Assembly (NCBI RefSeq): GCF_030908215.1
Contig: NZ_JAVFJK010000008.1
Coordinates: forward strand, 1 to 64,000
Origin: Sinomonas sp. ASV486
GTDB taxonomy: Bacteria > Actinomycetota > Actinomycetes > Actinomycetales > Micrococcaceae
Direction: 5' to 3'
DNA: 64,000 nt
The position numbers and the translations under genes are program-made. Below the pieces are notes generated by a model. It had not been told where the DNA came from and made no database searches. It saw only the letters and a program-made list of their open reading frames with translations. Position 1 is the stretch's first letter, and the number at the start of each line of letters is the position of its first letter. This document shows, piece after piece, positions 48,043 through 60,573 of this stretch.

Positions 48043-48234
48043 GACGCGTGACCTCACAGCGCAGGAACGTGACCCCGCAACGCCTTGGGCGATGCGGGGT
48101 CATGTCCCAGCGATGCGGGGTCATGTCCCAACGATGCGGGGTCATGTCCCAGCGTTGCGGGGTCATGTCCCAGCGATGCGGGGTCATGTCCCAGCGATGC
48201 GGGGTCATGTCCCAGCGTTGCGGGGTCAGAGACC
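48043..48234. repeat. 21-bp-period array, GGGGTCA-TG-TCCC core, six copies plus degenerate ends
   Basis: Cores GGGGTCATGTCCC start at 48096, 48117, 48138, 48159, 48180 and 48201, exactly 21 bases apart. They are separated by 8-base linkers of the type AGCG(A/T)TGC. A seventh copy at 48222 is GGGGTCAGAGACC. On the left, inverted copies GGAACGTGACCCC (48064-48076) and a weaker one at 48043-48055 are also 21 bases apart. The array fills the gap between the oppDF-like gene and chorismate mutase, and its last TCA is the stop codon of the former. Confidence 0.95.
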
Positions 48235-49935
48235 GAGGAGGGCCCGGTGGGCCTTCCTCCGCTCCGCCTGCTCGACCGGGTCCGGGACGGGCAGCGAGGC
48301 GATGAGCCGCTTCGTGTAGTCGTCCTGGGGAGACCCCATGACTCGGGTGCCGATCCCCTGTTCGACGAGCCGGCCCTTGTACAGGACGCCCACCCAGTGG
48401 CTGAGCTGGTCCACGACCGCGAGGTCGTGGCTGATGAACAGCGCGGCGAACCCGAACTCGGCCTGGATCTCGCGGAACAGCTCGAGGACCTTCGCCTGGA
48501 CCGAGACGTCGAGGGCCGAGGTGGGCTCGTCGGCGATCAGCAGCTTCGGCCTGAGGGCGAGGGCCCGCGCGAGCGAGGCGCGCTGGCGCTGGCCGCCCGA
48601 GAGCTCGTGCGGGTACCGCGCGGCGTAAGAGGAGGGAAGCTGCACGGACTCGAGCAGCTCGCCCACCTTCCGCCGCACCTGCACGGAACCGAGCTCGGTG
48701 TGGACCACGAGCGGCTCGGCGACGCACTCGCCGATCGTCAGCTGCGGGTTGAACGACGCCGCCGGGTCCTGGAACACGAACCCGATGTCCTTGCGGACGG
48801 GCCGGAAGCTGCGCTCCTTGAACCCGACCATCTCGTGTCCGAGGACCGTGAGGCTCCCGCCCGTGGCCCTGTTGAGACCCGCGATGACGCGGCCGATCGT
48901 CGTCTTTCCCGAGCCGGACTCGCCCACGAGGCCGAAGACCTCTCCGGCGGACACGGTGAAGGACACCCCCTGCACGGCGCGGAACGCCGGCGTGCCGAGA
49001 CGGCCTGGGTACGTGATGTCGAGGCCTTCAGCCCGTACGAGCACCTCGCCCTGGTGCAGCCGCTCGCTCGCGCCTTCGGAGGCCGAGTCGCGCCCGAGAT
49101 GCGGGACGGCGTCGAGCAGGCGGCGCGTGTAGTCCTCCCGCGGCGAGGCGAACAGCGTCTGCACGGGCGCCTCCTCGACCACCTCGCCCTGGTACATCAC
49201 CACGACGCGGTCCGCGAGGTCCGCGACCACGCCCATGTTGTGGGTGATGAGCACGATCGAGGTCCCGTAGAGGTCTCTGAGGTCTCGCAGGAGCTCGAGG
49301 ATCTCGGCCTGGACGGTGACGTCGAGCGCCGTCGTCGGCTCGTCGGCGACGATGAGCTCCGGGTCGAGGGCAAGTGCCGCGGCGATCACCACGCGCTGCT
49401 TCTGCCCGCCCGAGAACTGGTGCGGGTAGTAGTCGACGCGCTTCTCGGGGTCCGGGATGCCGACCTTGCGCAGCGCCTCGACGGCCCGCTCCTTCGCCTC
49501 CTTGCGCCCGATCTTCCGGCCCTGACGATCATGGTGCGCCCGGATGCCCTCCGCGATCTGCCACCCGACCGTGAAGACGGGATTGAGGGCCGTGGAAGGC
49601 TCCTGGAACACCATGGCAACGTCACGTCCGCGCAGCTCGCGCAGCTTGGCTGCGCTGAGCGTCACGACGTTGTGCCCGTTGATCACGACGGCGCCGGAGC
49701 TCGTGGCCGTCTCGGGCAGGAGGCCCAGAATGGTCTTGGCCGTCACCGTCTTGCCGGACCCAGATTCGCCGACGACGGCGACCACCTCGCCTGCGCGGAC
49801 GTCGAGGCTCACACCGCGCACCGCCTTGACGTCTCCGGAATCGGTCGCGAAGGTAACCTCGAGGTCATCGATGTCCAAGACCGTGGCCTTCGGCCCCGGG
49901 GCACCCGCGGGTGTCACGTTGAGCTGCTCGGTCAT
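48226..49935 (-). CDS. Peptide ABC transporter ATPase, DppD-DppF fusion
   Basis: The protein has 569 residues and two complete nucleotide-binding domains in one chain. Domain one has [16 protein letters not shown] near 56, the signature FSGGQKQRV and [13 protein letters not shown]. Domain two has [16 protein letters not shown] near 334, [15 protein letters not shown] and [13 protein letters not shown]. Fused DppDF/GsiA-like ATPases are common in actinobacteria. It energises the permeases encoded just upstream; the start overlaps the permease stop by four bases. The stop codon lies inside the first core of the repeat array. Confidence 0.95.
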
Positions 49936-50945
49936 GCTGCGTCTCCTTCCGGGCTGGCCGGTGCTGTCGCGGCACCCTTGGGCGCGCTCTTCTTGCCACG
50001 GGTGCGGATCCGCGCGTCGGCGAGGTCATTCATGCTCTCGCCAACCAAGGTCAAGCCCAGCACCGTGAGGACGATCGCGAGGCCCGGGAAGACTCCGGTC
50101 CACCAGATGCCCGCGGTCGCGTCACTCTGTGCCTTGTTGAGGTCGAAGCCCCACTCGGCGGCGCTCGTGGGTTCGATGCCGAAGCCGAGGAAGCCGAGAC
50201 CGGCGAGCGTCAGGATCGCCTCCGAGGCGTTGAGCGTGAAGATGAGCGGGATGCTGCGGGTGGCATTGCGGAAGATGTGGCGCCCCATGACGCGCCACGT
50301 CGATGCGCCGATGACCTTCGCTGACTCGACGAACGGCTCGGCCTTGAGGCGGATCGCCTCGGCGCGCACCACGCGGAAGTACTGCGGGATGAAGACCACC
50401 GTGATGGAGATGGCCGCCGCCAGGATTCCTCCCCACAGGTTCGACTGGCCGTGGCTGATGACGATCGACATGACGATCGCCACGAGCAGAGACGGGAACG
50501 CGTAGACGGCATCCGCGATGACCACGAGGATCCGGTCGAGCCAGCCTCCGAGGTAACCGGAGACGAGTCCGAGGGCCACGCCGATGAAGATCGACAGGAT
50601 CACGGCCACGAAGATCACAAGGATCGCGGTCTGGGCTCCCCAGACGACCCGGGAGAACACGTCGAAGCCGCCGACGGTCGTACCCCAGAGGTGCTTCGCC
50701 CCCGGGGGATCCTGGGTCGGGAAATTCCCGTCAGCGTCCCCGATCTGCGAGAAGCCGAAGGGGGCAATCAGGGGGGCGAAGATCGCGAGAAGGACGAAGA
50801 TCCCGGTCAGGACGAGGCCCGCCACGAGCATGGCACGCTGGACGCCGACGCTCGTGCGGACTTGCGCAACGATCGGGAGCCGGGTCCAGAGCGGATCCCT
50901 GCGCTCGATCTGTGGAAGCGGCTGGGCGCTGGACGGAGTGGACAT
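49932..50945 (-). CDS. Peptide ABC transporter permease, DppC-like
   Basis: The protein has 337 residues from the ATG at 50945. It has an N-terminal cytoplasmic stretch, a first membrane segment at about 38-62 and five more up to about 300. The EAA loop FRVVRAEAIRLKAEPFVESAKVIGAS identifies an OppC/DppC-type inner-membrane subunit, and the N-terminal OppC extension is present. The start shares one base with the stop of the dppB-like gene (TGATG). The C-terminal 25 residues are Lys/Ala/Pro-rich. Confidence 0.93.
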   Translation of the reverse strand: MSTPSSAQPLPQIERRDPLWTRLPIVAQVRTSVGVQRAMLVAGLVLTGIFVLLAIFAPLIAPFGFSQIGDADGNFPTQDPPGAKHLWGTTVGGFDVFSRVVWGAQTAILVIFVAVILSIFIGVALGLVSGYLGGWLDRILVVIADAVYAFPSLLVAIVMSIVISHGQSNLWGGILAAAISITVVFIPQYFRVVRAEAIRLKAEPFVESAKVIGASTWRVMGRHIFRNATRSIPLIFTLNASEAILTLAGLGFLGFGIEPTSAAEWGFDLNKAQSDATAGIWWTGVFPGLAIVLTVLGLTLVGESMNDLADARIRTRGKKSAPKGAATAPASPEGDAA

Positions 50946-60042: not shown

Positions 60043-60477
60043 ATGTCAGCCACCTCAGCACACCACGGCAGGATTCATACCTCCTCCGGCGCGCGCAGCG
60101 GCGCCCGAGCGCTCACCCCCGCCGATCAGGCGTTCTACCTGCTGCGGACCCTCTATATCGTGGCCCCGATCCTCTTCGGCCTCGACAAGTTCTTCAACGT
60201 CCTCACGTATTGGCCCAACTATCTCGCCCCTGTAGCGACCCAGGTTGTCCCCCTGAGCCCGCAGTCATTCATGTACATAGTGGGCGTCGTCGAGATCATC
60301 GCCGGGCTCCTCGTCGCATGGAAGCCGCGGTGGGGGTCACTCGTCGTCGCGCTGTGGCTGCTCGGCATCATCGTGAACCTGCTCGTGCTCGGGCACGGAT
60401 TCGACGTCGCGCTGCGCGACTTCGGCCTCCTCGTCGGGGCGCTCGCGCTCAACCGGCTCACCGCCCGCAGGGCCTAA
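60043..60477 (+). CDS. DoxX-family membrane protein
   Basis: The protein has 144 residues with four hydrophobic segments at about 30-48, 72-92, 98-116 and 120-138. LYIVAPILFGLDKFFNVLTYW and VVEIIAGLLVAWKPRWGSL are typical of the DoxX/SURF4-like family. In mycobacteria DoxX joins SodA and a thiol oxidoreductase in an oxidative-stress membrane complex. GGAAGGAG lies seven bases before the ATG. Control by the divergent SufR-like regulator fits a redox-linked role. Confidence 0.88.
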   Translation: MSATSAHHGRIHTSSGARSGARALTPADQAFYLLRTLYIVAPILFGLDKFFNVLTYWPNYLAPVATQVVPLSPQSFMYIVGVVEIIAGLLVAWKPRWGSLVVALWLLGIIVNLLVLGHGFDVALRDFGLLVGALALNRLTARRA

Positions 60478-60484
60478 CCGGTCC

Positions 60485-60573
60485 GAAACGTGACCCCGCA
60501 TCGGAGGAACGTGACCCCGCATCCTCGTCCCAAGGATCCGGGGTCACGTCCCAAGGATCCGGGGTCACGTCCC
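60485..60573. repeat. 21-bp-period array, GGGGTCA-CG-TCCC core, two direct and two inverted copies
   Basis: Direct cores GGGGTCACGTCCC at 60540-60552 and 60561-60573 are separated by AAGGATCC. On the left are two inverted copies (60485-60497 and 60506-60518), again 21 bases apart, followed by GCATC as in the 48-kb array. The whole can fold into one long hairpin. It lies between the convergent doxX and lipid kinase genes, and the last base of the final core is the first base of the kinase stop codon complement. Confidence 0.93.

Follow-up and report, generated by a model that had tools for sequence, protein, structure and literature searches.

The window analysed here, a stretch of 64,000 nucleotides from Sinomonas sp. 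ASV486 (positions 1 to 64,000 of the forward strand of contig NZ_JAVFJK010000008.1), carries three arrays of a short repeat with the 13-base core GGGGTCA-NN-TCCC. The explanation that we favour, with a probability of roughly 0.6, is that they are scattered representatives of a repeat family belonging to one chromosomal two-domain protein, following a logic like that of REPtrons with a different enzyme, and including the mechanism proposed below. The partnership between gene and repeat is stable, the two diverge together, and the repeats are dispersed in genomes that hold the gene; as to how this comes about, we infer binding, cutting and a nuclease-driven spread. These findings suggest that enzyme and repeats form a type of system that has not been described before.

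In its most general form, to which we would give even odds, the proposal is of a class of self-spreading repeats driven by a Vsr-type nuclease that reads sequence: this nuclease, in place of any transposase or HUH enzyme, would amplify and disperse arrays of its own binding site, with specificities that diverge along with the enzyme and with several modules living side by side in one genome and capturing sites from one another. To our knowledge, the known small bacterial extragenic repeat families that have a partner enzyme use HUH Y1 transposases. If true, the proposal would provide a second, independent route to REP-like families, the series of paired enzymes and cores would make protein-DNA specificity and its evolution testable, and a role would be suggested for part of the protein's numerous relatives in Actinobacteria that are still unexplained.

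The partner gene and its framing arrays

In the genome of the window (G000), a gene of 307 amino acids at G000:C1:66259-67179, on a contig other than that of the window, is framed by two arrays of the window core. Inward-facing arrays stand on both sides in all nine of the nine genomes with a close orthologue (L166-L174; G000 and G058, which are one species, and G002, G003, G004, G008, G011, G012 and G013), and in G005 three of the 8 exact cores found genome-wide adjoin the homologue. Inward arrays of other cores frame many homologues within Sinomonas and a further two from a different genus of the same family. The homologues of G001 and G009 have inward arrays of GTTGYGGGGTCYCGTCCGGCCG and GACGAGTGGGCACTTCTCGCCC, respectively, each with a period of 22 bases, and that of G007 has an inward unit of 32 bases, made up of exact AGGGGTCACCTCCCGTGGG at one flank and of a close variant at the opposite flank. 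Other cores also frame homologues in G005 and G006 and paralogues in G000, G002, G004, G008 and G013; paralogue arrays at other loci are composed of GTTGTGGGGTCTCTGGC, of GTTGAGGAGTCACCTCCG, of a TCTCGGGTAC unit of 31-32 bases, or of a 14-base unit. Enzymes are thereby paired with at least seven cores, and both core and period largely track the protein tree.

Flanks were compared by a test that required the two flanks of a gene to have at least five 10-mers in common once either of them had been reverse-complemented, the comparisons resting on the best-matching open reading frame (ORF) rather than on curated starts. Among 50 homologue loci from 15 Sinomonas genomes, 33 passed, as against 163 of 2450 mismatched pairs (Fisher p 7e-26, for loci that are not independent of one another), and sharing in the same orientation was found at 7 of the 50. 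With TRF at a low threshold, tandem repeats were detected on both sides at 26/50 loci and on one side at 17/50. Many of the homologue loci that have no arrays sit on distant branches of the tree.

A homologue at E <= 1e-8 is present in 161 of 248 genomes of the order, and those examined outside Sinomonas mostly have no arrays. Among 29 loci from outside the genus, clear paired arrays were seen at L249 (G503) and L264 (G554), weaker or one-sided arrays at L247, L250 and L256, and none at most of the others; L379 (G624), a later addition, has a clear array pair, and the 11 loci fetched alongside it have no copy of that core. Carriage of the gene by plasmids or phages was considered and rejected; the records found, 4 from plasmids and 1 from a phage, are all distant. 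As a separate observation, L189 and L374 hold shortened nuclease homologues beside 14-base units or their remnants, and are possibly decaying modules.

Dispersal of cores read from gene flanks

Five cores were taken from the flanks of homologues and then sought in whole genomes, with counts that include the home arrays and are complete per genome. All five are dispersed in their genomes of origin, or six if the window core is counted. The core ACGAGTGGNCACTT occurs 40 times in G009 (7 at home), 8 times in G005 and not at all in 13 genomes; TTGRGGAGTCACCTCCG occurs 13 times in G008 (4 at home), 8 times in G013 (1 at home), once in G002 and not in 12 genomes; and GTCTCGGGTACRG reaches 141 copies in G001, 44 in G009, 29 in both G005 and G006, 13 in G010 and 0-8 in the others. 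The core CGCTCTCTCANNTC, sought in ten genomes, is found 57 times in G503 (9 at home), 30 times in G624 and 9 times in G600, with 1 copy in two genomes and 0 in five. A second dispersed family of the window's own genome is formed by TTGNGGGGTCYCTGG (G000 93, G058 91, G004 39, G001 33 and G002 27 copies), which advances in 22-base steps, e.g. at G000:C1:31318-31459 and 408015-408119, with no copy in the window; six genomes have none, and four have 4-6 copies with no gene framed by TTGNGGGGTCYCTGG among the loci seen, copies that we read as relics. Reversed patterns gave 0-1 matches in the genomes where the respective core abounds.

The test was also run backward, from dispersed copies to a framed gene. 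The GTCTCGGGTACRG-bearing genomes G009, G005 and G010 have homologues flanked by GTCTCGGGTACRG, that of G010 with an array upstream and only a single core downstream, and G624, which bears CGCTCTCTCANNTC, has a second homologue framed by CGCTCTCTCANNTC.

The window arrays and the repeat unit

The first-pass annotation of the window had described the 13-base core at three loci with an exact 21-base period, and this description is confirmed by 15 exact cores across the three loci (6 + 7 + 2), in steps of exactly 21 bases. When one mismatch is permitted, the window holds 19 matches, compared with a mean of 2.22 and a maximum of 7 in 100 dinucleotide shuffles; two of the 19 (17131 and 24843) stand alone and may be due to chance. 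The inverted cores ahead of arrays 1 and 3, and the bare GGGGTCA with which arrays 1 and 2 end, are additional to the features described earlier.

48064..48076, minus strand: single inverted core with one mismatch, heading array 1
48096..48213, plus strand: array 1, six exact GGGGTCATGTCCC cores, dinucleotide TG, 21-base period
48222..48228, plus strand: bare GGGGTCA terminating array 1; the minus-strand ABC transporter gene, which ends at 48226, has its TGA stop codon within it
57814..57952, plus strand: array 2, seven exact GGGGTCACCTCCC cores, dinucleotide CC, 21-base period, in a convergent gap
57961..57967, plus strand: bare GGGGTCA terminating array 2
60485..60518, minus strand: two inverted cores heading array 3, at 60485-60497 (two mismatches) and 60506-60518 (one mismatch)
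60540..60573, plus strand: array 3, two exact GGGGTCACGTCCC cores, dinucleotide CG, 21-base period, in a convergent gap

Array 1 lies in the gap of two minus-strand genes, an ABC transporter gene at 48226-49935 and a chorismate mutase gene at 47547-47996. Gene calls agree with the claim that every array adjoins a gene 3' end and that two of the three (arrays 2 and 3) occupy convergent gaps. Rfam at gathering scores gave 0 matches in the window.

Beyond the window, the own genome has 70 exact cores and 0 matches to the reversed pattern, and 14 Sinomonas genomes have 37-233 cores in nine cases and 2-8 in five. The 44 genomes of other genera hold 0-6 cores each, similar to the reversed control (0-7), and, among the matches listed, nearly all of the named contigs with two cores 21 bases apart are from Sinomonas. 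The pattern GGGGTCA-NN-TCCC is abundant in Sinomonas only, and the suggested recurrence in the genome and its relatives holds for the own genome and for Sinomonas, with other genera at the level of the control. The consensus unit from 479 cores, GWTGM-GGGGTCA-YS-TCCC-WRC, is wider than 13 bases, and inverted pairs are a common arrangement among arrays.

Across 153 Sinomonas arrays, the NN dinucleotide is identical in 74% of 429 within-array pairs compared with 26% of sampled between-array pairs, and linker identity is 0.72 within and 0.49 between arrays. Because units are alike inside an array and unlike between arrays, the local amplification earlier read from the uniform dinucleotide and linker of each array is supported. 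Most of the arrays seen have a period of 21 bases, a count biased by the pattern with which array loci were gathered, which required 21-base spacing. A spacing of two helical turns did not hold up as a rule, in that some arrays of the own genome have a 19-base period and sister modules have periods of 14, 22, 31 or 32 bases.

A viral origin of the family was considered and rejected, the only candidate being a single viral stretch with a shortened pattern that included one exact core. Separately, two in-frame GGGGTCACTTCCC copies occur at 5053-5086 of L111, an alphaproteobacterial metagenome-assembled genome (MAG), within a transposase-like ORF that we take to be IS256-like; they are probably coincidental.

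The protein and a proposed mechanism

The partner protein combines a weak AbiEi-like N-terminus with a Vsr/DUF559-type nuclease C-terminus. All three members compared with the PADLOC AbiEi models gave N-terminal matches (best E 7e-11, 2e-6 and 6e-6), and at E <= 0.01 the Pfam models AbiEi_1 and AbiEi_4 match 2 of 28 members each, MTES_1575 matches 19/28 and DUF559 14/28. In the available part of PMC3710099, MTES_1575 is a Vsr-type restriction endonuclease domain. The C-terminal motif comprises E207, D239, (Q/E)250-Y-(D/E)-G-x-HH, D265 and R268, and across the 28 members E207, Y251, G253, H256, D265 and R268 are invariant, with D239 and H255 near-invariant. The conserved residues would suit an active PD-(D/E)XK-type enzyme, with roles of the residues that are our own reading. 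The ratio of nonsynonymous to synonymous divergence (dN/dS) is 0.07-0.19, at dS below 1.3, in seven of nine pairs, with the two other pairs saturated, and by this measure the gene is under purifying selection. A profile search of solved structures returned only 3hrl, an endonuclease-like protein, at E 0.16. In G000 the gene has as neighbours a polyprenyl synthetase gene and a gene for a protein that has no Pfam match.

Under the explanation that we favour, the AbiEi-like N-terminal part would read the core and bind arrays side by side, and the Vsr-type PD-(D/E)XK C-terminal domain would nick or cut at or near the core. Repair of such breaks might then expand the units in register and copy pieces of an array into new gaps, where they would survive mainly behind stop codons. 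AbiEi proteins, as far as the accessible part of PMC7319586 describes them, bind 23-bp repeats beside their genes.

Genomic niche of the arrays and the host-factor alternative

In general, the repeat families considered here are located for the most part behind gene 3' ends and within convergent gaps. Genes were called with our own codon-score script, which missed the nuclease gene at some loci, e.g. L294. The 134 distinct arrays from other Sinomonas loci comprise 16 at edges, 15 inside called genes and 103 that could be classified (61 convergent, 38 co-directional and 4 divergent), and the 267 array-free gaps of the same loci comprise 37 convergent, 148 co-directional and 82 divergent. An enrichment in convergent gaps, which had been put forward as a check, is thus present (61/103 arrays versus 37/267 array-free gaps; p 1e-17 for convergent preference). 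The 38 arrays in co-directional gaps lie a median of 17 bases past the upstream stop codon and 65.5 before the next start. In the own genome, 29 clusters divide into 10 convergent, 10 co-directional and 2 divergent, with 7 inside called genes; arrays accordingly occur chiefly outside genes, both here (7/29 inside) and elsewhere (15/134). Sister families show convergent placement in 13/17, 14/18, 6/9 and 5/6 cases (edge cases dropped: 0, 1, 2 and 1, respectively), the first of these including two home arrays of L294 that were counted as convergent because the gene caller had missed the nuclease gene.

This niche bears most directly on the main rival explanation, which we consider possible at well below even odds: that the protein is a host DNA-binding factor (a road-block, terminator or nucleoid protein), that the arrays are selected sites which stop convergent transcription, and that the gene-flanking arrays are autoregulatory operators as in AbiEi systems. 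The convergent-gap preference in the families tested is what it would lead one to expect, as is the purifying selection on the gene, and AbiEi proteins autoregulate through 23-bp repeats (PMC7319586, in the part available). A terminator-like hairpin word (GCACGACG or CGTCGTGC) that occurs in Sinomonas intergenic gaps, e.g. L146 5594-5823 and L351 1469-1859, is also rarer where arrays are present, at 3 of 72 array-bearing against 11 of 48 array-free convergent gaps (p 0.003). Against a host factor stand the conserved nuclease-type residues and the presence of arrays not just upstream but also downstream of the gene, and different-core families coexist in one genome (70 + 93 copies in G000). Furthermore, different families hold one and the same orthologous gap in different species (L085/L303, L043+L112/L282, L104/L323 and L094/L351). 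Single-orientation arrays between co-directional genes divide 18 versus 11, with no clear orientation to transcription, which again argues against a host factor; an RNA hairpin, which the first-pass annotation had allowed for, is therefore not required. The mechanism that we favour and a host factor could both hold.

Some orthologous gaps lack the core and others hold it. In one gap (L125, L133, L140, L095 and L049), two genomes have 12-13 bases and no repeats, two others have either 76 bases and two cores or 141 bases and five cores, and the own genome has 86 bases with degenerate units. Absence of the core from some orthologous gaps is as a spreading element would give. In a comparison aimed at clean insertion junctions, with loci that all came from array scans, 5 of 63 orthologous gap pairs have no core-like word, and two of those 5 (both against L089) are not empty because the L089 array extends into a called gene.

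Single genes lie between plus and minus arrays 400-2000 bases apart in 18 cases, with 0 in the opposite order. The nuclease gene accounts for six of the 18 cases, the Y1 gene of L127 for one, and a single TetR regulator gene, present in four genomes (L043, L070, L096 and L112), for four, for which reason we do not lean on this bias; a NUDIX-like gene stands in this position at L095 and L140.

Relation to known repeat systems

The arrays resemble REP/REPIN-RAYT systems in being short repeats scattered over gene 3' ends and convergent gaps, as singles, inverted pairs and clusters, and they resemble REPtrons in that an enzyme gene is framed by its own repeat and that repeat and enzyme diverge together. 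The partnered extragenic repeats treated in the available parts of PMC3733652 and PMC6006769 are served by HUH Y1 transposases, and a REP is defined, in the part of PMC6006769 at hand, by a hairpin whose stem has at least 7 pairs and which is preceded on its 5' side by a GTAG/GTGG foot. By contrast, a search for the Y1 HUH transposase PF01797 at E <= 0.01 gave 0/15 Sinomonas genomes, the control search being positive in 6 of 14 named genomes, and a GT[AG]G foot is missing from GWTGMGGGGTCAYSTCCCWRC, the consensus unit of the 479 cores. The Sinomonas arrays also differ in being long and head-to-tail with a fixed period, and the protein in being AbiEi- plus Vsr-like. Of the proposed REP-like nature, dispersal, local amplification and the 3'-end location stand; a REP in the strict sense, with GTAG foot and Y1 transposase, does not.

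There is also a resemblance to TIRtrons (Y1 subclass 2.1, TIRYT), and an improbable second alternative holds that the arrays derive from these, as orphan terminal inverted repeats whose transposase has been lost. The motif resemblance is real: GGGGTCA matches the motif GGGGWSAS (given in the available parts of PMC3733652 and PMC6006769), which fits the window core, the repeats are oriented inward around an enzyme gene, and some TIRtron repeats are multi-copy families (PMC3733652, in part). The eighth base of the motif is C or G in 58% of the 479 cores, and several sister families do not fit. At 8 of 20 loci of other Actinomycetota, GGGGWSA frames a Y1 gene inward (L231, L233, L236, L242 and four more of L226-L245), with 0/20 outward; at L228, one of the eight, no ORF was resolved. 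A MAG, L127, has at 3113-3906 a Y1 (RAYT-like) gene framed in TIRtron-like manner by GGGGTCAACTCCC cores; the window core thus flanks this gene at either end, and at one end its copies are spaced 21 bases apart. We nevertheless rejected orphan TIRtron/RAYT membership, as the 15 Sinomonas genomes have no Y1 gene, the constant partner is another protein, and several sister cores are unrelated to the motif, ACGAGTGG, TCTCGGGTAC and CGCTCTCTCA being unlike it yet behaving alike.

A likeness to AbiE type IV toxin-antitoxin systems lies in the weakly AbiEi-like N-terminal part and in the binding by AbiEi of repeats beside its genes. The Sinomonas system differs in the fused nuclease-like domain and in sites dispersed genome-wide, and no DUF1814 toxin or AbiEii gene is present among the two neighbours of the home locus in G000. 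The likeness to DUF559/DUF2726/MTES_1575 Vsr-type nucleases is that of the conserved C-terminal motif. A literature search, with most subscription papers outside its reach, found no report linking DUF559/MTES_1575-type proteins to repeat families; nor did it find a named family of this design, in agreement with the first-pass annotation, which had known of none. IS21 ends were also rejected as a source, since the four places in the own genome that match IstB (PF01695), of which one exceeds the cut-off, are none of them next to a listed core.

Least probable of all is that the repeats arise and decay at gene ends by neutral slippage, with no enzyme involved and the nuclease gene a mere neighbour, a view which would suit the likeness within arrays (as local amplification) and a home-locus gap of 88 versus 69 bases, one 19-base unit apart, in two genomes of one species, and which is already contradicted by the presence of one core at many unlinked places per genome, with reversed patterns at 0-1, and by the dispersal that the five flank-read cores correctly predicted.

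Observations at odds with the favoured explanation

Several observations weigh against the explanation that we favour. At the level of the protein, the AbiEi and nuclease assignments fall below the Pfam gathering scores in the members shown, and an AlphaFold model built from five close sequences had a mean predicted local distance difference test score (pLDDT) of 43 and was unusable. When paralogues of different core are compared, conservation is lowest in residues 1-60 (0.32-0.50 in seven pairs), and the same is true of most of 30 same-core orthologue pairs, for which reason we dropped the fast evolution of this segment as a sign of core reading. At the level of gene and array, 17 of the 50 loci fail the flank test, including L178, L181, L183 and L187 despite arrays on one or both sides, and L188, L191, L365 and L377 pass it with no tandem arrays, at loci where same-orientation sharing is also high.

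The dispersal counts come from related genomes and are therefore not independent, and some of them lack the expected partner: G600 has 9 copies of CGCTCTCTCANNTC and the core at 0/5 of the homologues examined, and G005 has 8 copies of the G009 core ACGAGTGGNCACTT, with no framed homologue found. The 33 TTGNGGGGTCYCTGG copies of G001 end in CTGG, and its framed homologue has CGTCC. Homologues framed by TCGGGTAC at L363 (G003), L373 (G002), L367 (G008) and L369 (G013) are accompanied by 8, 4, 1 and 1 copies, respectively, these being counts of the searched pattern GTCTCGGGTACRG, from which the cores of the four loci themselves differ. Finally, insertion ends or target duplications were not found.

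Other repeats in the window

Two further tandem repeats occur in the window. A 15-base repeat at 55398-55512 lies within a gene called at 55269-56468, which looks MnmA-like by its start, so that the repeat there would be in-frame in a housekeeping enzyme. An 18-base repeat of 2.8 copies lies at 33303-33352.

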